DNA of 64,000 nucleotides, taken from positions 134,314,001 through 134,378,000 of the forward strand of contig CM059582.1 of NCBI GenBank assembly GCA_030407085.1, written 5' to 3'. Under the pieces are notes generated by a model. The model saw only the letters and a list, made by a program, of their open reading frames with translations. It ran no database searches and was not told where the DNA came from. Numbering within the stretch: the first letter of the stretch is position 1; each line of letters opens with the position of its first letter. The translations under genes were made by a program, and so were the position numbers. Below are positions 20,485 to 47,606 of this stretch, piece after piece. The DNA comes from Trichopria drosophilae. Its lineage: Eukaryota > Arthropoda > Insecta > Hymenoptera > Diapriidae.

Positions 20485-20489
20485 AATAG

Positions 20490-25907: not shown

Positions 25908-25965
25908 TCACTCTCCCCCCCTCCCCCCCTCTCTCTCTCGATATATATATATATATATATATATA
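25908..25965. repeat. (CT)n and (AT)n microsatellite
   Basis: A C/T-rich run (ctcccccc..., ctctctctctc) passes into an (AT)n stretch of about 24 bases that ends where the MITE terminus tacagggtggccg begins. Confidence 0.9.
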
Positions 25966-26360
25966 CAGGGTGGCCGATTTATCTGAAGACATCGAAATAT
26001 CTCGAGAACTATGCACAGAATCAAAAAAGTTGTCGGATGAAAGTTGTTCGACACGAAGGGGGGCATCCAGTGATAATTAAATTTACCCCCTCCCCCATCC
26101 CCTGGGGGTGGAGTGGGGGCAAAAACAATAAAACTTAAATAGGAACCCCCAGTTTTCATTGCAGATTTGGATTCTCCGGAAAAAAGTACACCAATTTGAC
26201 CTAGGAGCTATTGCATTTTGGTTCACAGGTGGCGCTGTAATCGATAAAAATCCAAATTTATCTGAAGACATTGAAATACCTCGAGAACTATACACAGAAT
26301 CAAAAAAGTTGTCGGATGAAAGTTGTTCGACACGAAGGGGGGCATCCAGGGGGCAAATAG
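25966..26360. mobile_element. Rearranged MITE (relative of 20130-20484)
   Basis: Starts acagggtggccgatttatct inside an AT microsatellite. The core is inverted relative to the copy at 20130 (it reads gacctaggagctattgcatt where that copy has its reverse complement). A second, direct copy of the left terminal sequence then appears at about 26258 (atttatctgaagacattgaa) in place of an inverted right end. The proper right terminus is therefore lost. A chimera of two copies, or abortive transposition, would explain this. Confidence 0.75.
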
Positions 26361-27190
26361 GGACAATTTTGATCCCTTTATGAAAATTTAATATTAATAA
26401 TTCTAATATTAGAATTTTTAATATTAGAATTTAGTAATATCAATTGCGAAAATTGTTATTCTGAATATGAAATTTTAATAATGTCCATTCGAAAAATTAA
26501 GATTATGAATAATTGATATTCTTCATATTAAACATCAAAACTGATTACATAAAAATTGTGCATACAATATGGAAGCAATTTTATAAATAAGTTTTCTACC
26601 TTCAATAAAATTACATTTTAGGTTTTAAATTTATTATTTAATAAACAAAAAGAGGACATCACGCAATCCATTAAAAAACGCGTCATGTCCCTTCACTCAG
26701 CTCATTCATTCTCTCTCTGTATGTTTTTTCCGAAACGAGAATAAATAAGCTGAGCATTGACGGTCAAACCAGCTTCTATTAAACAAAACGAAACTCTTAC
26801 TTCATTTGGGGATTTCGTCGCCATCTACCGGACCCCGAGAGAACTCACGTGGTTTCATACATGTACATCGCTTGCATTTCGGCCATCACCGGCGCCGGTT
26901 CTGTTACATAACGCTAGAGGGCGACATAACTCGAAAATAAAGTAGCATATCATTTTATACATAAATTGAGTCACACGTAACCAGTTCACCTACATTTTTC
27001 TCTACTTTCCTGAAGGGAAGTAAATGGATATCGCGACTTTCTAATCCCCATATTAAAATTTAGTATTCACGGTCTTTCAGTGTAGGACTGTTTTTGAAGT
27101 CCATTGTATTGGTAGTAATTCGGTCGGAGGTCACTTTGCTTTTAGAATAACAACTTTCCGTTTACGTGACTATTTTTTGTCTACCCTTCA
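26361..27190. other. 5' flank of the DD41D transposase
   Basis: AT-rich DNA with a somewhat less AT-rich patch at 26750-26930. It should contain the left end and promoter of the mariner copy, but I could not find a left terminus matching the right-hand one near 28724. Confidence 0.4.
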
Positions 27191-28252
27191 TTGCTTAAAT
27201 CGAATTGCAAGTTAAAAATGAATCCTGCTACAGTTCCCGAAAAAATCGAAATGATTCTTATTTATGGTGAATGTAAGAGGAATATTGACGATGCTGTTGC
27301 GTTGTATGCTGAGCGTTTTCTAGATAATGCTCGCTCGCGTTCTTTTTTTTACAAAGTTGTGAATGCCTTTCACTCTGATGGCAGCGTACAAATGAAAAAA
27401 AGGAAGCGAAGATTAACAGTTACAGGAGAAGCTAACGAAGTAGCTATACTAGCAGCTATTCACCAAAATCCACATGTAAGCACACGACAATTACATCGCG
27501 ATTCCGGCATTTCCAGAGACAGTATTCAAAAAATATTGCATCGTCATAAGTTTCACCCATATCACATTTCACTGCACCAGGAACTAGATGGCGATGATTT
27601 TCATAACCGCGTGGTGTTTTGTGAATGGGCATTTCAAAAAATGCAAACGAACCACAATTTCTTTGCTAATGTATTATTTTCAGATGAATCTACATTCACG
27701 AACCATGGTGGCGTCAATAGACATAATATGCAGTATTGGAGCGTAGAAAATCCCCATTGGTTACGACAAGTTAATAATCAACGTCCTTGGTCGGTGAACG
27801 TTTGGTGTGGAATCATAGGAAATAATCTCATTGGTCCTTATTTCATTGAAGGTAATTTGAATGGAACAAAATATCGAGATTTTCTAGAACATGAAGTACC
27901 ATTACTACTTGAGGATGTTGCTATGGACGTCCGACGGACAATGTGGTTTCAGCATGATGGTTGCCCAGCACATTTTTCAAGAGTAGCAAGGAAAATACTA
28001 GACCGTGATTACAATGGTAGGTGGATTGGTAGAAGTGGCCCCATTAATTGGCCTGCGAGGTCACCTGATCTAACATCTCCGGATTTCTTCCTATGGGGTT
28101 ACCTAAAAGGTAAGGTTTATGAACAAGTACCAACGACTCTTGAAAACATGGTGGAACGCATAAGAACTGCTTGCGCAGAAATTTCTGCAGATATGATTCT
28201 ATCATGTATAAAGTCATTTGAAGAAAGAATAAATAAATGCATTGAAGTGTAA
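27191..28252 (+). CDS. DD41D mariner (rosa-type) transposase, apparently intact
   Basis: Seen: one uninterrupted frame of 353 codons. An N-terminal helix-turn-helix region is followed by a basic stretch (KKRKRRLTVTGEANEVA) and a second HTH with HPHVSTRQLH-type spacing (NPHVSTRQLHRDSGISRDSI). The catalytic core has D165 in VLFSDESTF, D256 in WFQHDGCPAHF and D298 in SPDFFLWG; the last two are 41 residues apart. WPARSPDLT precedes the third Asp. Known: the enzyme binds terminal repeats and moves the element by cut-and-paste into TA sites in the nucleus. Length and motifs are complete for the family. A second Met at residue 10 (27218), just before NPATVPEKIE, may be the true start. Two dead relatives lie at 1467 and 46748. 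Whether the terminal repeats are intact is unclear. Confidence 0.92.
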   Translation: MLKSNCKLKMNPATVPEKIEMILIYGECKRNIDDAVALYAERFLDNARSRSFFYKVVNAFHSDGSVQMKKRKRRLTVTGEANEVAILAAIHQNPHVSTRQLHRDSGISRDSIQKILHRHKFHPYHISLHQELDGDDFHNRVVFCEWAFQKMQTNHNFFANVLFSDESTFTNHGGVNRHNMQYWSVENPHWLRQVNNQRPWSVNVWCGIIGNNLIGPYFIEGNLNGTKYRDFLEHEVPLLLEDVAMDVRRTMWFQHDGCPAHFSRVARKILDRDYNGRWIGRSGPINWPARSPDLTSPDFFLWGYLKGKVYEQVPTTLENMVERIRTACAEISADMILSCIKSFEERINKCIEV

Positions 28253-28699
28253 GGTCAACATTTCGAACAGTCATGATTCATCAGTTCATTTTTTCTGGTT
28301 GCATCATTCCAACCCAGATGCGTTTTTAACTTTTCTTTTTTATTTCCCTGAAAACATACCGAATACATTCGAAACCCGATACTTTGCAATACTCGACCCG
28401 ACGAATAAAGACGAGAAAAGAACACACGGAAGCGACAATGATCATGCACATCATACGCTCCATTTTGGACTGCTCGGCAAAACAGCTGACGCGACTTATA
28501 CGGAAAGTACGCAAGAGGGGCCGCCGAATGTAGCGCCCGCGGCGCTCTTGGTACAGACGTACCTGACGGCGGGCCTACCGCGCGCTATGATTGGTCAACT
28601 GTTATTGCTCGCCATTCAAATTCTATGCTTCGGATCGAAATTTTGTATGAAACTTTTTTGCTCAGAATGATGTCAATATTCACCCCCTACAATATTATT

Positions 28700-28742
28700 A
28701 GGGAGTTCTCGGACACCCTGTATATATATATATATATATATA
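28700..28742. repeat. Possible right terminus of the DD41D element plus (TA)n
   Basis: gttctcggacaccctgta runs straight into an alternating TA stretch. Its inverse, tacagggtgtccgag, shares its first bases with the MITE end at 25966 (tacagggtggccga), which also abuts (AT)n. These could be the two ends of one 2.76-kb element inserted in a TA microsatellite, but the match is short. Confidence 0.45.
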
Positions 28743-29556
28743 TGTGACGATCCACGTCTAAAGAGCCACCGCTCTTCCCAAAATTTAAATAGCTCAAACG
28801 AAACGTTTCATAACTCAAATGTTCATAATGACAAGTACTTTTGAATCTATAGTGGCATTTTAAAAAATTTCGAAATGGCGACCAAAATATAGTGCCTTTT
28901 TTCAACAATTTTGCAGTCTTATCAGATAGAAGCGGCTTCCAACGGAAATTAATGTCCTTGAAAAATTTGTTCTGGGACTAAAAATATATGGTCAGAAGTA
29001 GTCTTTCGACCGCTACTTTGGGTTTTTAAATTTTCAAAATGGCGGATCCAATATGGCCGATCAAAAATTTTAAAATGGTAGTTTTGTCTCGCATTTGGTA
29101 TACAGGGGTTTTTGAGGTCGCTGATTACGAATATGGTGTCAAATATTCAAAATTCAAAATGGCGGATCCAATATGTCCGACGAAAATTTTGGAAAACGGT
29201 AATTTTGTCTGATATTGGGTATAGAGGACTTTTTTATGTCTCTGATTACGAATCCGGTGTCAGATTTTCAAAATTTAAATTGACGGGTCCCATATGTCCC
29301 ACGAGAATGTTGAAAATAGTGGATCAAAGCATCCTGAGCAATAAAAAGTTTCTTAAAGCTATCTGCGTTAATTATAATATTGTTCTCTGTGATAATATAA
29401 CTTCAAGAACTGGTAAAACTATATCCATAGATACTTATGACAAAGTAATACAATTTTACGAATCGAATGAGACTACGAACATTTTGAGCTATGAAACGTT
29501 TCATTTGAGCTATTTAAATTTTGGGAAGAGGCTCTTTTGACTTGTATCGTCCCACA
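28743..29556. mobile_element. MITE with ~90-bp inverted ends and minisatellite core
   Basis: The left end (tgtgacgatccacg ... ctcttcccaaaatttaaatag ... gaaacgtttcat) returns inverted at about 29470-29556 (atgaaacgtttcatttgagc ... gtcccaca). Both ends border TA. The core 29035-29300 carries the dispersed aaaatggcggatccaatatg / gaggtcgctgattacgaat motif in two to three units. The open frame of 142 codons at 29112-29540 follows the repeat and is not a gene. Confidence 0.78.
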
Positions 29557-29564
29557 TATAAAGG

Positions 29565-31030
29565 GTGTTGTTGCAATAGCGCATGAGAGATACACCATGA
29601 TGAAGATTTTTTTTCTTGAGGCCGATGGCCCCAAAATTAATTTTCAGCAAGGTATGGTTCGTCTGTAAATTGAATTTTAAAGTTTATTTATTTTAGGGGC
29701 ATCCTTCCCACCTAGACAATTGGTGAACTTGTGAATCTTGACTAGATCACATCGAACACGTAACCGGTGACAGTTGAAAACCCAAATCGATATTGCCAGA
29801 AGGATGTTTCGAAACAGTCAGATGTTTTTATTAGAATAACTGGACGCTTGCAGATGAGGTTAAACTCATCAGAAATTTCGAACATTCGGTAGAAAATAAG
29901 TTACGTACTGATTTATTCGTTAATTGTAGCGTTTTCGAAAAGTATAAATTAAATTCCACTTTTTTCATTACTTCTCCTAACTTTAGATCAACAAAAATTA
30001 CATTGGCGTTTGTGATTATTTTTGAACGATTAAAAAAGGAAGATTATAAACTGAATTGTAAGTAAGAAACATTTCACATAGTGAATTAGTTAGATTTGAG
30101 CAGATTGGCACTATTATTAAACATGAATGAATAATAAGTCACATAACTACGTGTTCATTAACTCCAGCTTTTTCCAGTTTTTTTAGAATTAGTGAACGAA
30201 CCGAAAGACGCATTTCTTTAGTGAGTTTGAATTACTGTCACTTAATTAATAAAAATATGTACCATTAGGAATCTTGCACTATCTCTTTTATCTATTAATT
30301 CAGTAATAATTTTTCCCAGGCTTTGTTTGGTTATTGTATGACCGGAAAAAGGAATATGCAAATTGAATTTAAATTATTCAAAATTGAAATGAAAGAATTT
30401 GTTAGGTTAGAGTTCGACGTTGGACACTAAAATTGAGATTATAGACTGAATTTAAATAAGCCCATATCTAATTGAATGAATTTTTTACATTAGGATATTT
30501 CAGTTTAAACGCGCCGATTTTATGTGTATGCAGAAATTACATTGCAGGCTGGTATCTCTTTATGATCCGATTTGGGAAAATACGGATTGATATTTAGTCA
30601 AATAGCTATTAAACAAATGGTAATTTATGATCTTTTAATTATTTCTTGCTACTTTTGAGCAAGTTAAAATTGTCATTTGTATAAATCAACTACTTATTAC
30701 TTCTTTGAGATACATACTGAAGTTATTGTTGAAGTTGTATTAGCTTTTTTTACCGTTTACCGAGATCAGCTTGTTATTGCATTGTATCATCGTTGCCAAC
30801 ATTGATCATTTAAAGTTTTATGCTTTTACCGAATGTTCGAAGTTTCTGATGATTTTAATCTCATCCTCAAGCATCCAGTTATTCGAATAGAGCAATTCCA
30901 CGCCAAGTGATCATACGATTTTTGGACCATCTCTCCAATTTTAACGAAATTGTGTAAATATGTTCTTTTACGTATGTCGAATGAAAACCTATAAGACGAA
31001 TTTCAAAATTGTTTTAGTAGCTCCTGATTT
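29565..31030 (+). repeat. Left inverted repeat of the 16.7-kb element
   Basis: Continuous copy of the arm. Landmarks that recur inverted on the right: tgcaatagcgcatgagagat (end), caaacgccaatgt-type sequence near 30000, ggttattgtatgaccggaaa (30330), aacgcgccgattttatgtgt (30510), catcgttgccaacattgatc (30790) and gtgatcatacgatttttgg (30908). No open frame of note. Confidence 0.88.
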
Positions 31031-31904
31031 AAAATTTTGGTCATTTTTTTTTTAACACGTTTAACTTTTTATCTTCATAGCCTATAAAAATAATTTTGTT
31101 TAAATTGCGCACAATAAGGTGCAGTTTTCACAAAAAAATAACTCATAAAAAAAAATTTTGTTTAACTCGAAAAAAGTTCAAAACATGTTTTTAAATCCAA
31201 TTATTTAAAAAAATAAACCTTCGAATAAAATTTTTTTTGTAGTTGTTTAGGATATACAGAATAAGTCCTGTAAGTTTCATAATGGGAGGGCACTAAATTT
31301 AGTGGAAAAAAATAAAACCTTCCCCGCGCGGCGTGGCGAGAGCGTGCTCCACGGTTCTCGCGTCGTGCCGTCACAGTTTAAAGTGCAAAGGGTTCTGCAA
31401 AATCTATTGCAGTTAGTATTTCTTAATACGCTTTACTATATGGTTCTTAGTATAGAGTAAAATGAAAAAAAGAAGAATACTAAATCTAATTCAATTTAAG
31501 TATCATTGATTACTCAAAGACTACGAGAGTCGATGATTTATAATTTGATGTTACATTTTAAATGTCTAAAACGGTGGATTCAATATGGCGACCAGAAAAT
31601 TACGTAAAAAATGATTAGATTGACCTGTGGTTTATGTTTTATTACCCGGCAGTCTTAAACTGAATATTTATGGCACATTTAAAAATATCAAAATGGGGAG
31701 TCTAATTATGGCGGATAATTAAAAAATTGATATTTGTGTAAATAATAAATGTTTAAAAATTAAGATTTTAATTCCGCTCTCAGCCGGTACCCAGAGTCAC
31801 GAACTAGGACGTGACAGTAATTGACTCCATTTTTTTGCATTTTATTTTTTATGATTTTTTTTTCATTTTATTATTTTTATGTTTTGACTACTTTTCCTCC
31901 TATA

Positions 31905-32725
31905 TACATTAATTTTGTTTTGATGCAAAATGCAAACGCAAACAGTATGAGAACCACTTCCGCCTGCTAGGATGCACTCTTTTGGTCTCAGTGAAGCAAA
32001 TGTCGAAAATCCTATTTTCTCATCCGGAAAAGAATCTTTAAAAGATTTGTATTATTCTTTAAGGTTCCATAACAGCAACCTTTTTTGTTCTTTTACTTTT
32101 TCTCCAAAACTGTTTCAAATTGTTACATAATCCCTCTTACCACACGCATAACACGACTATTGCTGTCGTTTTTTTTTTAAATTTTCAACTATTTGGGCTG
32201 TTGTTACAGAAAGAGTATTCCCTGCTGCTCTTCGTTCAGGAGTCGCTAAAAATTAATTTGAAGAAATCATTTCTTTGGCATGACGTGCCATTCGGTTAGA
32301 GCATTTAAATGTCTCTTCAATTCTTTGAATAGTCCACGATTTGGCTAATACTGTTAAAATGTTTAACTGCAAACATTTGTCAGCAACAGCTTCATTGAAT
32401 GTTTTTGGCAAATGAATAAAAATATTTTCCTCATCTGAAGTTGATTCATCGATTTCAAAAAGTTTCGGATTGATGATACATGTTATTTTTTTCATTAAAT
32501 TTGCTTTTTAAATTTTTATAAGCGGCAAAATCAATTGTAGATTCACCGAGTGTAGACAAACATTTATTTAAATAATAACATGCATTCTCTTTATCGACAT
32601 CAGGAAACTGTACGACTGCTTCTGACTCTTCAACTGCACAGTCTAAAACAATTTCATCCATTTCGGCATCATTATCTGTGATGTCCTCTTCGGCATCATT
32701 ATGTGTGTTTACGTGAGTCACTCAA
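31905..32725 (-). pseudogene. Internal gene of the large transposon, unassigned family, broken
   Basis: Seen: an acidic N-terminal block (32721-32455: HNDAEEDITDNDAEMDEIVL, then DVDKENACYYLNKCLSTLGE). Overlapping in another frame (32495-32253) is LPKTFNEAVADKCLQLNILT with SWTIQRIEETFKCSNRMARH. Below 32253 the line continues, with stops, through LATPERRAAGNTLSVTTAQI, QKRLLLWNLKE and PKECILAGGSGSHTVCVC to ILHQN near 31920. Known: proteins with this order (SWS/T-I...F.. helix, RPK.C...G..GTHSVCVC.IHQN) recur in multicopy invertebrate repeats; I know no agreed enzymatic role. Inferred: the transposon's own gene, since it lies alone between the inverted arms. At least one frameshift and two stops. 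Confidence 0.5.
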
Positions 32726-33025
32726 GAAGCTCGTATGCTTAAATTGTTACTTGAAGCGACATCTCTGACTTTGTGTCAAAAATTGTATATCGAATTTGGA
32801 ATTACGTGTCAATAACGAACGGCTTAATTAGTGATCGGTAGCGGGAGTCGCGATTGTGCAGTTACTTCGAGAACCTTGTCCGAGTCGAAAGCAAATTTAG
32901 AGAATTTACTTTTTACTATCTGCGAAGCTTATAAGTATTAGTGTCATCCGTCGCTTATTATTCGCGAATCTGCTCGAACAATTCTGCTAGACAGCTTCGG
33001 GCGAATAGCAGACCTCGCATTTATT

Positions 33026-33265
33026 TGTAACGGTCTAAGTTTAAACAGTGAATTTTCCACCACACCACGCGGTTCCGCCATATTGCACGCCGCGTGTGAC
33101 TCACACTGTATGCAAAACCGTGTTTGGAATAAAGTGTTGGTGTTCTATACATTTTTTAATCTGCTGCTTGTGAGTCTTTTTTCTGGTGCACCTTATTACT
33201 CGCCGCATCCCGCATTGCATTGGGCATCTGGAGTCGTACTGCTCGATTTCGTGCTCGACGAAACA
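33026..33265 (+). repeat. 5' LTR of second BEL/Pao element
   Basis: Starts TGTAACGGTC and ends CGACGAAACA (TG...CA), with AATAAAG at about 33128. It is followed at 33269-33285 by a primer-site-like TGGCGACCGTGACCGGA. No 3' LTR was found; the element appears cut off after RNase H near 37370. Confidence 0.6.
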
Positions 33266-33728
33266 TTTTGGCGACCGTGACCGGACGAGTTTCATGAGTG
33301 ATAAAATGCAGTGCCATTTGAATTTCGCTTGAAAAAGCGACCGCGCAACAGTGCAAAGGTTTCAGAGAACGCGATCATCTGGTCGGGGCCTTACTAGGAC
33401 GCATCTCATCTTGACGCCACGAGAATCACACCACATCGACTTCCCCCTGCGTCGCCCCACTCCGCATTCGCATCGTGTGTGTTCGGCTGGAGCCGCACAC
33501 CGTTTCAATTCAAGTCTAGGAGTGTATTCCTGCACGCCGAATACTCGCTAAAGTGTGAATGTTGTTCCCTTCCACGCACTTCAAGAAGGGACTCCCCACC
33601 GCTTCATCGCAGGCAAACTGACTGCCTTCCGCCTCCGATCAACGCGTGTCGAAATTGAATCACCTCGCATCAGCTGATACGCTAAATTGCTAAAGCTCGT
33701 ATAGATCAACGGGATTTTCTCCTAAAAT

Positions 33729-34606
33729 CATGTCGCGGCCAAAACGCGGTGACGCACAAAGTGATGAACATCACAAATATGTGAAGATAGTTGCTTCGCA
33801 GTACAAGCATCTGAGCACCAGCGTGCTGTAGCTATCGCGACAGCGGCCGATTGCATATTGGAACGTGCAAATGTCAGGAAATCACTTGGAAACGACTTGG
33901 AAGCAGATACAGAAGGAGGATAAAGATCTTCAACAGTTTGTCGAACTGTTAGATTGCGAACCTGATGCCTACTTCGCGGAAGAATTTATGGACACGGCTG
34001 AAGAAATTTACTTCGACATTCTCGCAACACTGAATTCTGTCATCAACCGGTTGTCACTGACTCAAACGGGTCTATCATCGCCATCTTCATCGAATGCTGC
34101 TCCAGCACCTGCAGAACGTCGACGCACGCAAGTACCTCATGTATCAGTTCCGCGTTTTTCGGGTCGTTATAGCGATTGGATCGAGTATCGCGATCACTTT
34201 CAGGCTCTGATCGTAGATGACACGACGATTACTCCGTTGGAACGATTGTCGCATCTTAAATCAAACTTGGAAGGGCATGTCTCAAAAGTTTTAAAAAATT
34301 GTCCGATACCGCCGAAAACTTTGATCTTGCGTGGAAAATGTTATGCGACCGGTATAAAAATAAACGGCAATTGTTGCACACGCATCTCGCAAAATTGTGT
34401 TGAACGCGGTTGCGTAAGATGATTCCCCAAGTGATCTGCGTTTATTACTTGATACGGCGCAAGAAAGTGTCGATGCGCTGCAAAAGCTGGGTTGGCCAAT
34501 TTCCGACGATATTCTTGTTTTTCTGATTTTGCAGCGGATCGACCGCGCATCGCGTGAATAATTCTATTTTTCATTAAAAGACGCAGAATATGCGACGTAT
34601 GCTCAG
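33729..34606 (+). pseudogene. BEL/Pao gag (DUF1759 region), frameshifted
   Basis: A start-like ATG at 33729 (MSRPKRGDAQSDEHHKY) runs to a stop. The line switches frame by 33865, where 33865-34422 encodes DLQQFVELLDCEPDAYFAEE, PHVSVPRFSGRYSDWIEYRD and LSHLKSNLEGHVSKVL. The PxFSGxxxxWxxxxDxF...LKSxLxG pattern is the DUF1759 capsid-like region of BEL/Pao gag. It then moves frame again (LRLLLDTAQESVDALQKLGW near 34440) before a stop at 34559. Dead, but easy to follow. Confidence 0.8.
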
Positions 34607-35887
34607 TTGCACAAATTATTAACTGCTAAATTGAGGTCGTACGAAGCATCGCGCGCATATGATGTCGAGAAACCACATCGCAGCATCGCGTCCGCAACGC
34701 GCACGAAACCAATCGCGAAAATTCAGTCGCATCATTTAGTTGCCAAGCGGCAAGGTCAGTGCAAAGCATGCTCCGGAGCACATCAATTATTTCAATGTTC
34801 AAAATTTAGAAATATGACTGTCAGTCAACGTCGTAATTTAGTCAAGCAAAGCGGTGCATGTTTTAACTGCCTTTCCACTCAGCATCGGGCATCACGCTGC
34901 AAGAGTGAACGCACTTGTAAACATTGTGGTGCCAACCATAATTCGTTGTTGCACTCGGAAGTGCAACAGAATCGCACGCAGATGTCACCGCAGACATTTG
35001 ACAGCTCCGCGAATGAAACATCGCCCAATCCGAATTCCGTCGACGCGAATTTACTTAATTCGACAGGTATCGCGCATTTAAGTATCGCGCGCGAACCTGC
35101 GCAAGTCGTTTTGTCAACGATAGTCGTACTAATGACAGTGCCATCGAAGCGAACCGTATTATTGCGAGCTTTACTCGATTCGGGATCAGCGCACACGTTA
35201 ATCACGCGTGAAGCTGCAAACGCATTGCAAACGCGAGAATTTCCTGCGTCAAGCATTATAATCGATGTAGGTCGACTGCCGCCGAATACATCCAAAGCCG
35301 TTGTTCCAGTGACGATAATGTCCGCGTCGGATTGCACTAAAGCACTGAGTACCGACGCCGCGATTTTGGACTCGCTTATCGAGTATAAATCCAAATTTAA
35401 ACACCCGCTCACGCAATGGCCACATCTCGCGGGCATTGAGCTAGCCGATCAGTGTCCGACAAATGACGCGCTGATTCACATGTTGCTCGGAGGTGATCTA
35501 GTTCCGTATGCAATGTGTGACGGAAAAATTCGAGGTGGATTGAACGAGCCGGTCGCGATGAAAACGATTTTTGGTTGGATTTTAGCCGGCAGAACCCACA
35601 CAGACGCATCGTCGGTTGAAATGGACGCAATATGCATACATCATGCGCATGTGCAGGATATTCTGCACGACACTCTCGCAAAATTTTGGGAGATCGATGA
35701 AATCGCTCCCATTCGCGCGCTTACGGACGAAGACGAGCGATGCGAACTTCACTTTCAGAAACCGCACTCGCGCGCTCCGGACGGTCGGTACATTGTACGC
35801 ATTCCGTATCGCGATCCCCTCCACTCAATATCGGACAGACGCACGACCGCGCCGTGCAGACACTCAAATCCATTGAGCGTCGCTTAG
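34607..35887 (+). pseudogene. BEL/Pao gag zinc knuckles, protease and RT linker
   Basis: A 426-codon open stretch. Order: CKACSGAHQLFQC, CFNCLSTQHRASRC and CKHCGANHNSLLH (three knuckle-like CCHC/H motifs typical of Pao gag); protease block LRALLDSGSAHTLITREAAN (active-site DSG) near residues 190-210; then LLGGDLVPYAM and PVAMKTIFGWILAGR, the linker before RT; then FWEIDEIAP and HFQKPHSRAPDGRYIVRIPY at the RT start. The frame is lost at about 35820 and picked up again at 35880. Known role: gag-pol polyprotein with virus-like particle, protease and RT. Confidence 0.85.
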
Positions 35888-36752
35888 CCACGCGGCTAAG
35901 TCCGGTGTTCAAGCAATGTATTTACCGCATCACTCTGTAGTGAAGGCTGATAGCGCTACTACGAAAACGCGAATCATATTTAACGCTTCTGCAGCATCAT
36001 CTAACGGACGTTCTTTAAATGACTTGCAATTAACCGGTCCAAAATTGCAATCGGATTTGCCCCTGCTGTATTTACAATGGCGTATGCATCGGTATGTGTA
36101 CACTGCCGATATCGCAAAAATGTATCGCCAAATTTTAATCGATGAACGCGACATCGATCAGCAACGCATTTTATGGCGAATATCACGGCTAAACGCAGTG
36201 AAAGAATTTCAATTATTAACAGTTACGTACGGAACCGCGAGCGCTCCATTTCTAGCGCTAAGAGTTTTGCGTCAACTCGCCCACGACGGAGGTCATGATC
36301 TTCCAATCGGGAAAAGCATCCTCCTCAACAACATGTCTGTTGATGACGCACTGTTCGGTGCCGATTCAGTCAATCAGGCGAATGAAGCTAGGATTCAGGT
36401 CACTGAGCTTCTAGCAAAAGGAAAGTTCGTTCTTCGAAAATGGGCAAGCAACACTGTGAGCCTACTCGACGATATTGACAGCACTAAGCACGGGCTATCG
36501 TGCGACGAAACTCTGCAAACAGATGAGAGTGTGAAGGTACTCGGCCTTTCATGGCAGCCTTCCACGGATACTTATAGATTCACAATCAATCGTGCCGCAA
36601 TGCCTATGATGTCGAAAAGAATTCTGCTTTCGCATATTACGCGACTTTTCGACCCTTTACGTTGGCTCGCACACGTAATCATTATTCGCAAAAATGATTA
36701 TGCAGAAACTGTGGACATAATGACTGGGACGACCCCCTACCGCCGGTTTTAG
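35880..36752 (+). pseudogene. BEL/Pao reverse transcriptase
   Basis: 35916-36752 contains TKTRIIFNASAASSNGRSLN, VYTADIAKMYRQILIDERD, QQRILWR, TYGTASAPFLALRVLRQLA and the catalytic block MSVDDALFGAD, where the family norm is Y-V-D-D. Later KVLGLSWQPSTDTYRF is the connection region. The frame ends about where LFDPLRWLAHVIIIRKN meets scrambled sequence, after which a different frame begins RNase H. Nearly full-length for the domain. Confidence 0.87.
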
Positions 36753-37370
36753 ATATCGCGTGGCGCGAATTCTACGATTTTCTCCCTGAATTGTCCAACA
36801 CTACGGGGCCACGGTGGCTCGGGACCTCGTCCTGTAGTATTTACGAATTGCATGGATTTTCGGATGCGTCCGAGAAAGCATATGCAGTTGTTGTATACGT
36901 TCGAACAAAGTTAAATAGCCACGAATGGCAGACGCGCCTTTTAATCGCAAAGACTCGCGTTGCACCGCTAAAGAAGCTCACAGTTCCTCGCCTCGAGCTT
37001 TGCGGCGCAGTATTATTGGCGCGACTATTGTGTCAAATTGCGCTTCCCTACTTCTCAGACCGCCCAGTTTTTTGTTGGACAGACGCGACCATTGTATTGG
37101 CATGGCTGAATGCTCAGTCCTCACGTTGGAAAACATTTGTCGCGAATCGGGTGGCTGAAATACACCATCATTTGCCCAATACAATATGGCATCATGTTCC
37201 TGGTGCAGAAAACCCTGCAGACCTCGCATCGTGAGGAGTTTCTAGTCAAGATGTGACTAAGTCTTCGTTGTGGTGGCATGGACCGACTTGGCTCACGCAA
37301 CCTCCCAGTTGCTGGCCAACTGTCGTTCCTCCACTTGACGCAAATCCCAAAGAAAAGTGTCACCTAATAG
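36753..37370 (+). pseudogene. BEL/Pao RNase H and truncated downstream end
   Basis: 36791-37234 has ELHGFSDASEKAYAVVVYVR (catalytic FSDAS), then APLKKLTVPRLELCGAVLLA (E), FCWTDATIVLAWL (D) and HHVPGAENPADLAS. This is the complete motif set for Pao RNase H. After a TGA the sense reads on (SLWWHGPTWLT) for about 40 codons and then dissolves near 37370. Integrase and 3' LTR are missing, so the copy is 3' truncated or was deleted. Confidence 0.85.
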
Positions 37371-37814
37371 ACCAGGATACGATTTTAAAAGATTTTCTGA
37401 TATTTTTCAAAGATTATTTTTAAAATTATTATGTTTGGGCTTCCGCAAAGGGTTATAGCAAATCTTAGTAAAAGGCATCTTACACAGATGCCTCCAAACT
37501 CCAAATAAATATTTTCCGGGAACTAAAAATTTTACACAGATCTTAGACGACACATTTTTAAAAACTATGAAAATAATTAACTATAACATGAAAATAAAAC
37601 CGGACGAAATAGTAAGAGTTAATGTATTTAAGAAATACAGATAAGAAATGGGGGAAACGGTTATAAAATCTCCAGGAACGCACTCACAAATTACAATATG
37701 CAAAGCAACATAAAAAAATTTAAACAGAAATCAAAGTAAAGTACATTTTTAACATCTCAGTTATGTACAAACAGATACCCAACTCATATATGAGGTAGGC
37801 TGCCATCTAGTGAG
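37371..37814. other. Interior sequence of the large transposon
   Basis: AT-rich DNA between the truncated BEL/Pao and the right inverted repeat. No gene seen. Confidence 0.4.
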
Positions 37815-38348
37815 GAACTCTCTAAATTCGTCTTATAGGTTCTCATTCTACATACATAAAAGAACATACTTACACAATTTCGTTAAAATTGGAGAAATGG
37901 TCTAAAAATCTAATGATCACTTGGCGTGGAATTGCTCTATTCGAATAACTGGATGCTTGCGGATGGGGTTAAAATCATCAGAAATTTCGAACATTCGGTG
38001 AAAGCATAAAACTTTAAATGATCAATGTTGGCAATGATGGTACAATGCAATAACAAGCTGATCTTGGTAAACAGTAAAAAAAAGCTAATACAACTTAAAC
38101 AATAACCTCAGTATGTATCTCAAAGAAGTAATAAGTAGTTGATTTATACAAATGACAATTTTAACTTGCTCAAAAGTAGTAAAAAATAGTTAAAAGGTTA
38201 TAAATTACCATTTGTTTAATAGCTATTTGACGAATATAGGACAGAAAGTCAAAACCGAAAAGTCCACACCGAAATGTCCAATGAAATCGAAAGTCCACAC
38301 CGAAATTATATTTTATTTATGGACGTTATTTTTTTACATGAACAAATT

Positions 38349-39440
38349 TTACATATGGATGTTGTAACCTATTGTTTTTAAGTTTTGCAATTCATCTTCG
38401 TTATGAACAAATTCCTGGTAATTGTTGAGAACACTAGCAATTCTGTCTTCAGTCTGTATAGTGGTTATCTTGGGTACTTTTTTTACTTTTTTACCCAGAG
38501 ACAAATCTCTCAGCATGTACTCGACATCAGCTTGTTCTTTCTGTAGCTCCGTTAAAAAGTTATAAAAACTTGGGTGATGTCGACCGACAAGTATCTGGAA
38601 GCACTTGTGCCACCCTTCCGACGCGTTGTTGGTGCGTGCAATCCCCTGCAGTACGGAGTTGAAATGATTCCAGAGAATTGGTTCGTACCGAACTTTTACT
38701 GCCTTTCTTCTGCCGATAGCTCGTATCCCGCGCACGTAATTTTTTTCGAAGTAGTTAGCAATAGGTATGAACTCCTCGGGTATGTCATTATAAAAAAAAT
38801 CAAAAACATTTTGGACGTCTTCGGGAAGTACGAACGCTAAGGCGCACATGCTGTGTGCAGCATCTTGTATCGCAGAATCGTTTACATCTCCATATCGCTG
38901 TTGAAGACCTTCAGCTTGTATTCTGCGATACACGCTTTGGCATAGGTGAAATAGGCATAGTTTTATGGTCTCTTCACGAAAATGAAATTTTATGGCCTTT
39001 ATGATCGCCATTTTAAAATCAGACATGATAGTTGTGGGGTGTTGTATGGGAATACCGGCAGATTCAGCATGTGCGATTGTAACCTCTAAAACTTTTGAAT
39101 AGGATACTTCCTTTTTATTTTCCAAAAGAGAGTGTACAAGAGGAACGGCAATTTTTCGTGTTGAACCCTTATAAGTTTGTGTAACCGATCCCATTATAGT
39201 AAAGAGTTGGAAAAAAATGGAGGGAACTCTTTGAAATGTTCCATCTACATACCACACGTCTGATTTGAAAAGGACTCTTAAATTTTCGCGAGTTGCAAAA
39301 ACCAGTATTCTTCCGTAGCTCAAATTATGATCCACATCAGCATGCGAATCGTAAATTAAAAAATTTTTACCGACGAGATTTTTCTTAAATTGATCGTGAA
39401 GGTCTGTGATTCTAGTAGGATTAGAGGGGATGTGTCGCAA
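38349..39440 (-). CDS. MULE transposase, catalytic exon
   Basis: Seen: a 363-codon open frame. It has WYVDGTFQRVP (Asp near residue 66), FFQLFTIMGS, IMSDFKMAIIKAI (Asp near 141), the CxxH motif in KLCLFHLCQSVYRRIQ, and NNASEGWHKCF (Glu near 275). These give the D-D-E triad and CxxH of the MULE transposase domain. Known role: cut-and-paste or copy transposition of Mutator-like elements, in the nucleus. The upstream exon at 39521-39763 carries a FLYWCH finger. A likely intron lies between them (donor GTAATATT near 39496, acceptor gag near 39441-39445). The Met used here may simply be the first in the exon (MRHIPSNP). The catalytic part looks whole. Confidence 0.85.
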   Translation of the reverse strand: MRHIPSNPTRITDLHDQFKKNLVGKNFLIYDSHADVDHNLSYGRILVFATRENLRVLFKSDVWYVDGTFQRVPSIFFQLFTIMGSVTQTYKGSTRKIAVPLVHSLLENKKEVSYSKVLEVTIAHAESAGIPIQHPTTIMSDFKMAIIKAIKFHFREETIKLCLFHLCQSVYRRIQAEGLQQRYGDVNDSAIQDAAHSMCALAFVLPEDVQNVFDFFYNDIPEEFIPIANYFEKNYVRGIRAIGRRKAVKVRYEPILWNHFNSVLQGIARTNNASEGWHKCFQILVGRHHPSFYNFLTELQKEQADVEYMLRDLSLGKKVKKVPKITTIQTEDRIASVLNNYQEFVHNEDELQNLKTIGYNIHM

Positions 39441-39496
39441 CCTCTCTCATTAATGACAATAATATAACCTAATAATTAAAACCTAATCCCTAATAT

Positions 39497-39763
39497 TACC
39501 TTAATTGAAGACATTAAACGTCAAGCTTCCACTTCCTCGGGGTTAGGCCCATGACCGGTATGGGAGTTTGGTAAACCGCCATTTCGGACCAGAAGAGTAC
39601 GTCTCGTGCTTACAGTAGTCAAGCGTGCAGAACAATCTGGCTTTTGTCGACATTTCCAGTATTTAACGTCGCCTCTACTGTAAGAGCCGACGTACAGAAA
39701 TCCGTCAAGATGACCATAAATGCTTCGACCGCACGAAATAATTTCAAGATTTATCAAAGCCAT
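39497..39763 (-). pseudogene. MULE first exon, FLYWCH zinc finger, one in-frame stop
   Basis: The frame starting MALINLEIISC contains FLYVGSYSRGDVKYWKCRQ, then CSARLTTVSTR and HTGHGPNPEEVEA, i.e. a FLYWCH-type zinc finger (Cys-Cys-His-His) that usually binds DNA in these transposases. After PEEVEA a TGA occurs about eight codons before the predicted donor. Either that codon is a disabling mutation or a splice site lies slightly upstream. The element is therefore probably inactive despite the intact second exon. Confidence 0.72.
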
Positions 39764-40329
39764 TACAAAAATTTAAAAATATAAAAATCGTAAAGAAAAC
39801 TTAAAAGTATGTAAAGATGTCAAAAGGTTAAAACTAAAACAAAACACACCTGGAAATTTATTTTTTTTTCGGTGTGCTGTGGATATCAATAGCTGTGGAC
39901 TTTTCGGCGTGGACTTTTCGGTGTGGCCTTTTTGTTCGGATACCCTATTTGACTAAATATCAATCTGTATTTTTCCAAATCGGTTCATAAAGAGATACCA
40001 GCTTGCAATGTAATTTCGGCATACACATAAAATCGGCGCGTTTAAACTGAAATATCCTAATGTAAAAAATTAATTCAATTAGATATAGATAGATAGATAG
40101 ATAATTTATTTCTCATGTATAGGGAGCTACGTCCCATAGAGATTGAGTTCCGGATTTCGTAATACAGAATTACAATCAAATAGGACAAAAAAATAAAGAA
40201 TAACTTAGAATCTAAAATAAACATTTAAGTAATTCACGCAAGTACACAATACAAATCGCAATAATTTAACGAATAAAAATTGAATGAATACGCAGACGCT
40301 AAATAAAAATAAAACGCAATAAATTACAA

Positions 40330-43300
40330 TTAAAAACCCATCATAAAATTTCGCCGCACAAAACACGCTTTAACAAAATTATAAAGACATTTCTGGGAGT
40401 ACGAATCATTCTCACAAATAAAAACACTAATAACATTTTCTGAAAATTTTGCGAAAAGATCTTCACGTATCGAATGTGAAATTGGGCACTCTGAGAGAAT
40501 GTGCAGCAGGTTTTCCTCTTTGCCCATGTTGCATAAAGTAAAAATGGATGAGGGGTCGTAATTGTATCGACATCCAGAGATTATTAATGAGTGCGAATGG
40601 ATCGTAGCTAGCCGAAGCTGCATTTTAAGTTTTAAATGGTCCAGGTGAAAACGCTTTGGATACTGGGAGAAGATCGAGTCTTTATAAACTCGCAAGATAG
40701 GAAGCTGTGGAGAGTCAGAACCATAATACACATCGAGGTCGGCTTTTCTACGCTGTTCCGCAAATTTTGCGACAATCGATGGTCTTAAATACTCCCAGTA
40801 ATCGGCTTCGAAATTTTCCCATAGTCCGAACACGCCAGCATTTCCCAATACAGTCTTCAGCTGGACCATCCAGTTCGCTGGGACCGCATAAGAAGGGTTC
40901 TGTGCCAAGTCATGTAGGCGTAATAATAGGATTCTGGGTATCTTGGAAGCTGACATTCTTAAAACTCTATTAACCCATTTAATGGCTCGGTTCAAAATTT
41001 CAACAGAAATAGGGAATAACCCTAATTCAAGTCTAACCCGATAGGAAGGAGTATTCCTGGAAATATTAAAAAGCCTCTTAAAAAAATAGTAATTGCACAG
41101 CTTCCAGCTTACTCAAGTATCTGAGCGCCCGGAATGGTGCTGAGTACAGTAAAACCGATGTGATTAGCGCATTGTAAATTTTCCAGAGCGCTTCCTAGGC
41201 GTCTATTTTGGCAGTGGAGACAATCGATAACGCTGAGGCGGACGCAACGCTCGTTCTGGAAATAGCATCCTCACAAGGCAGGAGGCCTAGTACAGAAGAG
41301 GCTAACACGACCCCCAAATAACGGTAATTGTTGACAACTTCAACCGGACAGCCATTATAAAAGAAAAGTCTAGAATAAGAATCCAGGGGTCCGGCTTTTC
41401 GGAAGCACATAACCTTGGTTTTATCGGAATTAACAGTAAGAGCATTCAAGGCACAGTACTCGGCAAGAATCGACAACTTTCTTCTCATGTCTGCCGGGGT
41501 AGACGCGAATATCGTAAGATCATTGGCATGTAAAAGTAGTAACAAATCATACGAAGACGTTACATCCACTCCACGAACACCTCTCTCCCTAAAAAAGAAA
41601 GCAATATCAGACAGGTACAGGATAAAGAGCAGAGGGCTCAGTATCTCACCACGGAGCACACCTATAGTGACTTTATGGTCGGGAGAGGAGGCGTAAGTAG
41701 ATTGAATAAATGCAGATGCAGTCTGATACAATGCCCTTAAAACCCTAACAAATTTCGCGCTTACGCCAAGACTGACTAGTTTCTTCCAAAGCAGCATGTG
41801 AGGTACAGAGTCAAATGCCCGTTTAAAGTCGACAAAAAGACTGTATAATTTCGACTTTTCGCGGCGAAGAGAAATCTGGATAGTGGCAAATAGAGAAAAA
41901 TATATTATCCTCTGTGCCTCTTCCGCTACGGAACCCTGCCTGCTCTTCGGGCAAGATGCTCCCTTGAGAGGCCCAATCAGTCAGGCGTGTACACAGTATC
42001 TGCGAGAAAATTTTAGATAACGCATTAGAAATCGCGATCATTCGATAATTGGCCGGATCCTCACGGGAACCCATCTTATCTAAAAGAAACAAAGCTGCAC
42101 GAGCCCAATCTTTTGGAAATATTTCACGCGACAAAATTTCATTAAAGAGATTCAAAAGTTGGGATTGCCAGGAACTATCAAGCAATTTAAATAATTCGCC
42201 AGGCAACCCGTCTGGACCAATGGCTTTTCCAACTCTCAAACTCTTTATGCTGTTGGCTAATTCTAGTATCGTGAACGGAGAATCTAACATGGCAACAACG
42301 GGCTCAGTGACTGACAGATGGAAGACACTTATCTGCGGATAAACCGTCGACATAGGCCCTCCACGACTCAACAGAGACCGATTGACCAACGCTAGGTTTT
42401 GTACGAAACGAACGCACTACATTCCAGAAATCCGCAGAGTTGTGGACCGCCGCGAATTTATTGGAGACTAATTCAGCATGTGAACGCTTTTTATCCCTAA
42501 TTATTGTCAGATACTTTTTCTTGGCAGTCTTAAAAGAAAGAACCGAGCTAGGAGTGTACAGATATTTCTTCATCGCTCTTAAAGATACGTTGTAGTTTTT
42601 CTTAGCTACAACACAGTCCTTGTCAAATCAAGCCATCGCCTTAAAATTACAACGAGGTGTCTTATAAATTTTTGACCTGGACAAAATCTTTGCCTGTACA
42701 TCCGTATCCCGAAGCACATTTGTGAACGATCCACAGGCATTTTCAAAAGAGTTCGCGTCTTGGAAACTTAAATTAATTCGCGTGTGTTTAAGCGCGTTCG
42801 TAAACAGTGCGATCCCGTCATTCGACCGTAAAAATTTTTCCCTCGTTAACACTCCTGATGGAGTGAAGAATTCTCTAACAGGAGAACGATCTGTGCGGAG
42901 ATATAAACTCACGCAAACAGACAGATGGTCCGATCCATACAGATCATCCCCCGTTATCAAATCCTGTACAAAATGAAGGTGGGATGCAGAGATCCACACG
43001 AGATTCACAACACTAAAGCTATTGGTACCGATAAATGTAAAATGAGCGGGTCTGTCGCTACAAGTACGGCCATTTAACAAAATAAAGTTGTGTGAGCGCA
43101 TGAAATCGAGCAAAAGAATACCTCGGCTGTTATGCTGCATGTCATGCGATTTTCTAACCAAATTTACAGTCGAATCTTCAAAAATTTGAGGACAATCTAA
43201 ATGATCATCTAATGTTCCGATTCTTGAATTAAAATCGCCACCAAGCACAAACACACAACCGAGGTACTGGGCTTTCAAAGTATCAATAATATTCTGCAAA

Positions 43301-43731
43301 ATATTAAGATCTTCTTTTAAACTAGAATCTGGCGAAAAATAAAGAGAACCTATTATTGGATTAACCGGATAGGTTTTAACTAAATAAAAGGTCCAATTAG
43401 GCTTGATCTCAAGCTCGGTAGAGTCTATGTTATTTTTTAATAAAGTAAGAAGCCCTCCACTAGCACGACCGTACTTAGAAATACGAGAGGCCGGAGCAAA
43501 AATCTTTGAAAAGCCTACGTCTATATTTTTGACTCGATGACTCGCTTCACACCAAGTTTCCGAGAAATTAAAAATACCGCAAGCCGAATAAAAAGAATTA
43601 CAAGAAATATTATAAATACCGCGCGCATTCCAAAACGCTATTTTTAACATTTCATTTGAAGTAGAAGAATGAGGTGAATTCGAAGACGAAGTAGATCTCG
43701 TTGAGCAGTAGCGTACTGAGGTTGAAGGCAA
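40330..43731 (-). pseudogene. LINE ORF2: APE endonuclease, reverse transcriptase, C-terminal CCHC-like region
   Basis: Order on the minus strand: endonuclease 43650-42850 (LKIAFWNARGI, FSETW, GGDFNSRIG, SDRPAHFTFIG, GSDHLSVCV); RT 42390-41195 (GKAIGPDGLPGELFK, DPANYRMIAISNALSKIF, EEQAGFRSGRGTEDNIFF, GVLRGEILSPLLFILYL); then 40995-40330 with CNMGKEENLLHILSECP, a Cys/His motif common after LINE RTs. Damage: stops or frameshifts near 42600, 41800-41823 and 41195-41000. The catalytic box, normally Y-A-D-D, reads HAND in LLLLHANDLTIF. It is otherwise full-length, so it landed whole and decayed in place. Known role: nicks target DNA and copies the RNA there. Confidence 0.87.
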
Positions 43732-43838
43732 CGGGCGACGACGGGAGCCAATTAAAAAGGACGATTTTCTGAAGTATAAGACTCATCCATAGAGAGTTCA
43801 TATTTGTGCGAGGCGAGCGGCGTTGTGAAAATGACGCA

Positions 43839-44516
43839 TTATTGGTTTGAAAGCCAGTAAGCATTGCCGAGGCCGGAGTAGGATAATCTCGTCCTGAAGC
43901 CTGGTATGGGAAAAAAATCTTGATCATCTTCGGACCAACTGTACCAGACGTTATTAACGGCAATGCTATTTGCCTTCCTTTTGAACGAGTAGCCTTTCAA
44001 AGTTGCCATCCGATGGGCCACCCTTGCCTTATAGGCAATTAGACGATCTCTGTCTGTCAGATCGTTCGAGATATAAATTTTCGAGTTACGTAAGGCTGTT
44101 TTCTTCGCGTTAAAACTTGAAAATTTAACGTCCTTCGATTTCAGTTCGGCAAGGATTACGGGAGGATTGTTGCGTAAGAATCTTGCGTTTAATACCACAT
44201 CCGGTAAAGAAAACTTGGACGTTAACAGATTAATCGCAGTTGCTTTGGCTGAGAGCTGGCCGGGTTCAGCTCTAGAAATAACTATGTTCCTCTTCTTTAG
44301 TAACTTTTCTTGCAATTCAACTCTGTTAGCCAGCTTCTTTAGGGAGGATTCATAAGTCTGAACTCTTTTCTCTAGGACACTTATCCTGCCGGAAAATTCT
44401 TTTTTCATGTCCAGAAGCGTCTGATTGACATTAGAAATGTCTAATATATAGCCACCAATTTCATTGGAAAGAGTGCGAGTAGACTGTTCGATAGAAGCTT
44501 GAAGAGCCTCCTTCAA
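43839..44516 (-). CDS. LINE ORF1 protein (coiled coil plus nucleic-acid-binding domain)
   Basis: A 225-codon frame. Residues ~1-75 form heptads (ISVLEKRVQTYESSLKKLAN, VELQEKLLKKRNIVIS), a coiled coil. From ~75 on comes a globular region: KRNIVISRAEPG, then KIYISNDLTDRDRLIAYKAR and a basic stretch, like the RRM/C-terminal unit of L1-type ORF1. Known: such proteins coat the element RNA and act as chaperones in the cytoplasmic RNP. The frame overlaps the region before ORF2 and ends at 43839. The start is chosen as the first Met; a few more codons upstream are possible. Confidence 0.72.
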   Translation of the reverse strand: MKEALQASIEQSTRTLSNEIGGYILDISNVNQTLLDMKKEFSGRISVLEKRVQTYESSLKKLANRVELQEKLLKKRNIVISRAEPGQLSAKATAINLLTSKFSLPDVVLNARFLRNNPPVILAELKSKDVKFSSFNAKKTALRNSKIYISNDLTDRDRLIAYKARVAHRMATLKGYSFKRKANSIAVNNVWYSWSEDDQDFFPIPGFRTRLSYSGLGNAYWLSNQ

Positions 44517-46296
44517 ATTGTATCTTCCGTTGCAACCATTTTTACCGTAGACCCGGCAGTATTAGCGTCCGACAAGATTTTTTCTTTGGCTCTAAGAGAC
44601 GGAGGCGTTCGTCTACTTCCGACGAGACAGTACCTTTTCGTTTCTTAAAGACGAAATTATCTAGCGTGCCTGTGCTGTTCGTACGCTAGTCGATCCACTT
44701 ACTCGCCGTTGAACGACGGCCAATGGGGGTAGCTAGGAGAGAACTCTGCCCCTCCTTCTTACTGGACAATTGGTGCGACGGTATGTCAGCCTCGTCGAGC
44801 TGAGATTGAGGCGTGGCTTCGTTCGACATATGCAGCTAATACACTATCCGCGAGATGCTGCCGTCTGTTGCATTAAATTTGCAATTAAAGCGAAAGCGGA
44901 TACAAGAGGCGACCTGGAGCGTGCTTCACAGGTAACTAGCCTGACGCCTGCGTAGAACGTAGAAATAACGCACGTGCGCGGCCGCCAGAATAAATAGCTG
45001 GTATGAATATAAAAACGTTAAAATCCAGCCGTAAGACTTTCCAAATTGATGAAACCAAGCCGTTTTAATATTCTTTTACTCTCCCATCTGCATCCATGCG
45101 ACAACAGTCCAAAACCTCAAAAGCCGACCAGGAGTGGCAGATTCGGGTTAAGTCCGTAGCAGAAATTTCTTATTATTGCCAATTACATCCAGACTGCTTT
45201 GTAAAAAAGAGAAGTACTCTTCGCACAGCACTATAAACGTTATAAACACCTCCAGTAACGAGCCAAAAACGCACTATAAATAGTTTGCGAAAAACTTAGT
45301 CGGGAGCAAGTTGTGCTCGACCGGTCGGTTACAAGTCGGAACCGGAACTCCTCAATTAGATATGGGATCATTTAAATTCAGTCTATAATCTCAATTTTAG
45401 TGTTCAACGTCGAACTCTAACCTAACAAATTCTTTCATTTCAATTTTGAATAATTTAAATTTAATTTGCATATTCCTTTTTCCGGTCATACAATAACCAA
45501 ACAATGCCTGGGAAAAATTATTTCTAAATTAATAGATAAAAGAGATAGTGCAAGATTCCGAATGATACAGATTTTTATCAATTAAGTGTAGGTAATTCAA
45601 ACTCACTAAAGAAATGCGTCTTTCGGTTCGTTCACTAATTCCAAAAAAACTGGAAAAAGCTGGAGTTAATGAACACATAGTTATGTAACTTCATTCATGT
45701 TTAATAATAGTGCCAATCTGCTCAAATCTAAGTAATTCACTATGTGAAATGTTTGTTACTTTCAATTCAGTTTATAATCTTTCCTTTTTAATCGTTCAAA
45801 AATAATCACAAACGCCAATGTAATTGTCTTTGATCTAAAGTCAGGAGAAGTAATGAAAAATTCTTAATGAAACGTGTAGGTTAATTCAATACTTACAACA
45901 AAGTGGAATTTAATTTATAGTTTTCGAAAACGCTACAATTAACGAATAAATCAGTATCTAACTTATTTTTACCGAATGTTCGAAATTTCTGATGATTTTA
46001 ACCTCATCCGCAAGCGCCCAGTTATTCCAATAGAAACATCTGACTGTTTCAAAACATCCTTCCTGCAATATCGATGTTACCTTTCAACTGTCACCGGACC
46101 ACGTGTTCAATGTGAAGCAGTCGACACTCACATGTTCACCAATTGTCTCGTTGGAGAGGATGTCCCGAAAATAAAAAAACTTTAAAATTCAATTTACAAA
46201 GGAACCATTCCTTAATGAAAATTAATTTTTGCGCCATCGGCTTCAGGAAAAAAATCTTCATGATGCTATATCTCTCATGCGCTATTGCAACAACAC

Positions 46297-46747
46297 GATG
46301 TATACATACATATGGGACGTTTCACGTCAACCGGTTAATCAGTGTACCCAAAATTTGAATTTACCAATCAAGACGTTTAAGGGCTCAAAATGTTTGTCTG
46401 GTCAAGCACCTTCAAAAAAGTTCTAGCCTTTTGGTAAATTTCATAATGGCGGCTCAAAATGGAGGCTAGAAACCAATCAAAAATGTAGAATTCGAATCAA
46501 AAAGCTTGTGGGAAAGAAAATTTTTGTTCTATTCGATTGGTTTTGGGTTCAAATTGTTGGTTTCTACGTCTTCAAAAAGTTGGTAAGGTAGATTGATGAA
46601 ATCCAAGATGGCGGATTCAAGATGGCGGCTGAAACGTGGAAATCGTCGTGATTTAAAAAAGAATCGTCAGATAAATGCTAAAATTAGTTTATGGAGGTTT
46701 TGTAAGTCGCTGATCATGAATCTGAAGACTGATTTGCAAAACTCAAG
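46297..46747. other. Flank of the DD41D copy with dispersed minisatellite motif
   Basis: Contains catatgggacgtttcacgtc (46310), which has a near copy at 48005 (acatgggacattccacgtca) on the other side of the mariner relic, and aagatggcggattcaagatg / gatggcggatctaatatgg units of the dispersed repeat family at 46608-46765. Confidence 0.5.
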
Positions 46748-47606
46748 ATGGCGGATCTAATATGGTGGACAAATTTTAGAATATTTTTTGATACTGGCTC
46801 TGTCGGTGATCGTCCAAAATCGGGGAGACCAAAAATGGCTCTAAATGAAGATAACAGTTTAGCAGTCTGTGCTTGTGTTGTTGAGGAGGTCCATACTTCA
46901 GTTAGGAAGATTGCGCAACAAACTGGTATCGACAAATCCTCTGTTCATGAAATACTAAGACAAAATAAGTTTCATCCATATAAAATAAAATTTGTGCAAG
47001 AGCTTTCGAAAGACGATTTCGATTGCAGGTTAGAATTTTGTGGGGAAATGATGAGACGGTGTGACGAAAATGAGTTTTTCAAGTTCCGGATATGCTTCTC
47101 CGATGAAGCTACGTTTCAATTGAGTGGAGACGTTAATAGACACAATATGCGATTTCGTGAAATCAAATTGTTGGACCTTTCTTCGTTGAAGAGAATTTCA
47201 CAGCTGTGGCGTACTAAATTTATTGAATACCTATGTTATACCAGCAATCCAAAATAATACTGGTACAGCGTTTGACAATGTCTGGTTTCAACAGGATGGT
47301 GCTCCGTGTCATTTTGATTTGATTGTACGCAATCGATTGAATAATATTTTCTCCGGGCGTTGGATCGGCAGGAGAGGTTCGATTGAGTGGCCACCAAGGT
47401 CACCGGATCTAACTCCTCTGGATTATTTTTACTGGAGTTTTTTGAAGAACAAGGTGTACGAAACAAAGCCTATAGACATTGATGAGTTAAAGGAAAGAAT
47501 AATTCAATGTTCTAATTCGATATCTCAAGAAACGCTGCCAAAAGTAAATGATAACTTCTATCTACGACTGGGATATTGTCAAGTTGCTGAAAGACATCAA
47601 TTTTAA
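46748..47606 (+). pseudogene. DD41D mariner transposase, frameshifted and internally deleted
   Basis: 46748-47257 carries DRPKSGRPKMALNEDNS, an HTH region ending KSSVHEILRQNKFHPYKI and the first catalytic block CFSDEATFQLSGDVNRHNM. It then departs from the family sequence. 47223-47606, in another frame, has VWFQQDGAPCHF, GRWIGRRGSIEWPPRSPDLT and PLDYFYWSFLKN, again 41 residues between the second and third Asp. Compared with the intact copy, about 50 residues between the two blocks are missing and the frame is shifted. Inactive, and well diverged from both other copies. Confidence 0.87.

Follow-up and report, generated by a model that had tools for sequence, protein, structure and literature searches.

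What kind of event gives one locus two inverted arms of about 1.44 kb each that enclose the remains of other transposons? The question is raised by a 16.7-kb unit (29561-46300) of the hymenopteran Trichopria drosophilae, located in a window of 64,000 nucleotides (C1:134314001-134378000, contig CM059582.1; assembly of 936 Mb in 509 contigs), which is the whole stretch of DNA analysed and to which the positions given here refer. A preliminary description had taken the unit for one old transposon with inverted repeats of ~1.46 kb. Its genome copies contradict this view: each arm consists of one element (A) fused to the end of another (B), and the unit is probably a chimeric palindrome, A-B-A', that would have been formed by insertion of B into A followed by repair from an inverted template.

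Comparison of the window with itself, with the pieces of the right arm left unjoined, revealed four collinear inverted pairs: 29565-29965 / 46296-45897 (87.8%), 29961-30475 / 45860-45352 (93.8%), 30464-30605 / 40086-39945 (95.8%) and 30591-31003 / 38238-37824 (93.5%). The pairing was also examined base by base. Breaks in collinearity coincide with the positions of a Mutator-like element (MULE) and a long interspersed nuclear element (LINE) in the right arm and, aligned piece by piece, the arms are collinear after removal of these inserts, as had been anticipated. In each arm A lies outside and the first 114 bp of B lie inside. The left copy of A (29561-30889, forward strand) and the inverted right copy (37938-46300, reverse strand, split by the MULE and the LINE) flank element B (30890-37937), which shows the end GAGCAATTCCACGCC on both sides and contains a BEL/Pao relic. 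The terminal repeats of B are placed at 30890-31003 (forward strand, the inner 114 bp of the left arm) and 37824-37937 (reverse strand).

The evidence that the arm is composite comes from the A|B junction. A genome search with 30824-31003 gave 339 candidates; among the best 40, only two run through the whole query (1-180) and both are the window arms, whereas 24 stop at position 66, 12 begin at positions 64-68 and two overhang slightly (55-159 and 1-69). Since only the window arms span the junction among these 40 matches, the arm is not one family, and it was not found whole elsewhere, as a single foldback element with long terminal inverted repeats (TIRs) would be. The junction is shown by these scored matches to occur twice, as inverted copies, at this locus only. 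Over 20 bp, each junction is the exact reverse complement of the other, and B is thus flanked by a mirror-image junction. Seen from the side of A, 52 matches to its terminal repeat in 36 non-window loci include 42 that cross the point corresponding to the change from A to B in the window, nine that lie wholly outside it and one that stops there. Uninterrupted copies of the whole ~5-kb unit, which the preliminary description had expected, were absent from the best 40 candidates of each of three genome searches. No match was seen for the arm in the phage collection or for the window in Rfam.

The search of the genome with the arm gave 127 matches (best 40 of 531 candidates), none of which, outside the window, passes arm position 1325. 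Thirty loci were fetched with it, three of them (L001, L003 and L019) being the window itself and 27 others; L005 and L006 lie next to each other and are nearly identical, which makes the locus counts partly non-independent. Mapping of 36 loci revealed that A is built as a terminal repeat T (334 bp), a part u (929 bp) and an inverted repeat T', with parts usually missing. In the window, the left copy retains T, u and 66 bp of T' (30824-30889, the inner end of this repeat), where it is cut by B. T-u orders seen elsewhere fit the other half of T-u-T', and a segment inversion between the 66-bp repeats was rejected as their cause. The terminal repeats of A are of ~330 bp and end in CAGGGTGTTGTTGCAAT beside TATA; in other copies, TATACAGG precedes GTGTTGTTGC at the outer end. 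Among 21 non-window ends that were read, TATA stands beside the CAGG-like start in 15, is ambiguous in two and is absent in four. The proposed ends at 29565 and 46296 do belong to a terminus common to many copies in the arm search; however, the true ends are 4 bp farther outward, at 29561 and 46300, because TATA adjoins A at 29557-29560 on the left (a target duplication or a consensus flank) and at 46301-46304 on the right. This pair is poor evidence that the whole unit is bordered by a duplication, because most A copies have TATA there anyway. Insertion at TA, with TATA at both window ends, suggests from the ends alone that A is Tc1/mariner-like. The mapped copies are short and non-autonomous in appearance, and no A transposase turned up, although no protein search was aimed at A.

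Several elements lie around A. An open frame of 360 codons for a Tc1/mariner-like transposase (27170-28720; DUF4817, with HTH_Tnp_Tc3_2 below the cut-off) is followed by the end ACACCCTGTATATA, whose ACAGGGTGT start is common to element A; a matching left end for this unit was looked for and not found. An 824-bp element resembling a miniature inverted-repeat transposable element (MITE), whose inverted ends are of ~90 bp and which contains a 121-bp tandem repeat, abuts the left end of A (28737-29560). On the other side, the stretch 46314-47600 holds a related MITE-like end beside the right end of A, and then the broken frame of a mariner-like transposase (46733-47257 and beyond) with a Pfam match below the cut-off. 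An extension of the arms into these outer flanks was considered and rejected, the match between the flanks (74.5% over 51 bp) being best explained by two MITE-like elements of one family, located at TATA sites.

Element B was found with a genome search using the centre of the unit (31004-32703; best 40 of 180 candidates). Six stretches from five B copies assign the final 114 bp of the arm to B; these copies begin with GAGCAATTCCACGCC / GAGCAATTCC or a close variant, next to unrelated flanks, and none of the 20 fetched B stretches (L051-L070) has a match to T or u. On these comparisons A and B are shown to be separate dispersed families. Some structural differences were seen between the two sides of B in the window. 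The right terminal repeat is joined straight to inner B sequence and lacks a ~360-bp inward extension that is present in other B copies; in the copy at L069, the right-hand inner sequence is followed by an inverted terminal-repeat extension that the window does not have. The left side of B thus looks the more complete, native-looking one.

The divergence of the arms is not uniform. They differ at 104 of 1432 aligned sites, with 48 differences in the outer 398 sites and 56 in the inner 1034 (Fisher p 3.4e-5; this split follows a BLAST break and was chosen after seeing the data). The best single step is placed at 29799, with 16.5% outside (the outer ~240 bp) and 5.4% inside, a contrast reached in 0 of 1000 permutations. 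Its 2-unit support interval (29784-29880) includes 29828, the point that corresponds on the left arm to the entry of B, 268 bp from the outer end of the A terminal repeat (29561-29828). Because divergence steps at the B entry point, the arms are not one clean clock.

These observations are best explained by the following history. B would have inserted into the terminal repeat of an A copy, 268 bp from its outer end, and a gap on one side of B would then have been repaired from the opposite flank, the inverted repeats of B permitting a strand invasion in inverted orientation. Synthesis would have proceeded outward through the 66-bp piece of T' and u into T, and stopped when the new strand annealed to the outer part of the A terminal repeat that had survived. 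In this scenario the 16% divergence of the outer ~240 bp of the arms would be that between original ends, and the 5.4% of the inner part would be that of a copied tract. If it was the right arm that arose by copying, the MULE and the LINE would be later than the repair; in either case they were not copied leftward. BEL/Pao would be later than B, with no order set relative to the repair step. By such a course a nested insertion would turn a transposon with short TIRs into a foldback unit with long ones in one repair event. That this is a general route to foldback elements, of which the locus is a frozen record, is proposed tentatively.

Several points weigh against this history. An intermediate stage in the formation of A-B-A' was not found. 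The 4-bp target duplication ascribed to B comes from one copy, and the window B lacks it (flanks AATA/TATT). Divergence between T and T' within single A copies is mostly below the 16% of the window, being 6.6-12% with one value of 17% in seven loci, some of these comparisons spanning only 75-103 sites. The direction of copying also appears split: ends of the u1 type (n = 3) favour the right outer end (63 vs 34 of 108 cells), ends of the u929 type (n = 30) are even (461 vs 470), as are untyped ends (n = 8; 115 vs 124), yet it is the left side of B that seems more native. A step in divergence could likewise result from a mutation rate that differs locally. Finally, at L040 (4657-4740) an A terminal repeat is cut within ~3 bp of the B entry site and adjoins unrelated DNA with no B match; the entry site, where a short palindrome TTATTCGAATAA is located, may be a weak point in itself that breaks easily.

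This last copy and the flanks of B bear directly on the best of the alternatives, in which B inserted into the centre of a pre-existing, tail-to-tail palindromic dimer of A and duplicated TA. The flanks (...GAATA|B|TATTC...) suit a palindromic target with TA duplicated, and the copy at L040 indicates that A can break near this site with no B present. However, in the sole other B copy for which both ends were read, it is the 4-bp AGAT, not TA, that stands on both sides. A second copy with a usable pair of ends was not found, the right terminal piece of the one at C1:90.467 Mb (L070) not being recovered. Moreover, no A dimer joined at the B entry base was seen in the 36 mapped loci, and two rare events would have had to fall on one base. 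We consider this origin unlikely, though clearly the strongest competitor of insertion followed by inverted repair.

A single family with terminal inverted repeats of ~1.46 kb, of which the other copies are internally deleted derivatives, would account for collinear arms with a common terminus, and the T-u-T' form of A could come by deletion between the 66-bp repeats. This explanation is nevertheless improbable, as B ends without A in 12 of the best 40 junction matches, T and u are absent from all 20 B stretches and A continues beyond the B point in 42 of 52 T matches. Even less probable is a chance flanking of B by two independent A copies later made alike by gene conversion; A is common enough (37 non-window places mapped or fetched from the arm search alone), but B cuts both copies at the same base, in mirror image. 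A fold-back artefact of the assembly, palindromes being a known artefact type, is scarcely credible with arms 5-16% apart and the MULE and LINE in one arm only.

The MULE, the LINE and BEL/Pao each interrupt older sequence, and the nesting that the preliminary description had proposed stands to that extent. Its placement of the MULE, with a 9-bp duplication, and of the LINE, with a 12-bp one, in the right arm was borne out. The MULE (38232-39944, reverse strand, 1713 bp) is bordered by the 9-bp sequence CTATTTGAC at 38223-38231 and 39945-39953, a length within the 8-11 bp characteristic of the superfamily, and carries FLYWCH (PF04500, E 1.1e-7) and MULE (PF10551, E 4e-13) domains in two frames. 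The LINE (40087-45351, reverse strand, 5265 bp) lies between two copies of the 12-bp sequence TCAATTAGATAT (40075-40086 and 45352-45363); its endonuclease (PF14529, E 6.1e-8) and reverse transcriptase (PF00078, E 4.7e-18), in broken frames, identify it as a non-LTR (long terminal repeat) retrotransposon of the APE type, and it has a tetranucleotide-repeat 3' tail. Insert-free sites were seen in 21 of the 27 non-window loci for the MULE and in 22 of the 27 for the LINE, the remaining loci having no spanning match. Both insertions are firm because of these sites together with the duplications.

The expectation that each insertion could be cleanly dated from the arms does not hold, with 16% divergence in the outer part and 5.4% in the rest: the age given by the arms is that of the copied tract and not of the inserts. 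For the MULE, the best relatives are one at C1:213.93 Mb (96% over 1217 bp and 91% over the other 496) and one at C2:71.95 Mb (94% over 293 bp and 96% over 496). The window copy lacks ~154 bp at 39448/39449, between the FLYWCH and transposase frames, that are present in both of these relatives. Where identity is 96% (1217 bp in one relative, 496 bp in the other), the divergence does not exceed that between the inner arms, which is compatible with, and does not prove, an insertion of the MULE after the copied tract was formed.

The exact unwinding of the nest fails at the BEL/Pao element, a truncated relic inside B (32706-37360, forward strand, right limit approximate) with one LTR (about 32706-33265, limits judged by eye), a Peptidase_A17 match well above the cut-off (E 1.7e-31) and a DUF1759 match below that of Pfam. 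No second LTR or direct repeat >100 bp for the relic was seen in the window self-comparison, an integrase was absent from the four frames tested and the 3' half was not found. With one LTR, no integrase and no second LTR in the window, the relic is neither datable by its LTRs nor exactly excisable.

BEL/Pao probably split the gene of B, since profile matches are placed on both sides of it. The middle of this decayed, transposase-like gene (31917-32721, reverse strand) has a frameshift and stops and matches a profile over its positions 108-356 (E 2.6e-58 in 18 frames). This profile was made from 15 of 17 relatives that were themselves found with the window relic. The part closest to BEL/Pao lies in a different frame, with a weak match (E 0.0024), and a probable N-terminal piece beyond the relic (37383-37478, reverse strand; positions 1-30, E 0.017) is suggestive only; roughly 60-80 codons are unaccounted for. 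The 17 relatives, 16 of them unnamed, were obtained with a query carrying X at the breaks and share 31-47% identity with it. Pfam gave nothing above the cut-off for two pieces of the gene or for 10 of the 17 relatives, and a homologue search with one 88-residue piece returned nothing.

Other repeats were seen in the window. An inverted pair (20198-20488 / 25958-26254, 92.6%) with CCACCCTGTA / TACAGGGTGG ends pointing inward probably represents another TA-end element present in two copies. A perfect tandem pair of a ~278-bp unit (24817-25375) is a recent duplication or an assembly artefact. A complex cluster of inverted and direct repeats, partly on a ~133-bp unit, is located at 56290-59015, and a tandem array of about 4.7 copies of a ~173-bp unit at 63064-63874.

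Long "terminal inverted repeats" taken from one locus can thus be fused, unrelated transposons, by which family annotation and arm-based dating are misled and, if the repair route is true, foldback elements gain a testable origin. No chimeric palindrome of this kind is described in the titles and abstract openings of the papers listed in the literature searches. For Galileo, defective copies are attributed to abortion, slippage and template switching during gap repair (PMC4168063). Foldback-like elements with long TIRs, such as Galileo, share the long inverted arms with the unit; in contrast, the window arm is a junction of two unrelated transposon families, of which no second example was found. 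Element A resembles the Bari MITEs, non-autonomous Tc1/mariner elements (PMC4877112), in its ends beside TA/TATA and its many internally deleted copies, but is placed by its ends. The 9-bp duplication and the FLYWCH and MULE domains are those of animal MULEs such as Phantom (PMC6446971), from which the window copy differs in lacking ~154 bp. The named components are of known kinds, and it is the formation of the composite that is of interest: as in ordinary nested transposon clusters, successive insertions are ordered by interruption, but one step here is best read as an inverted duplication and not as an insertion.

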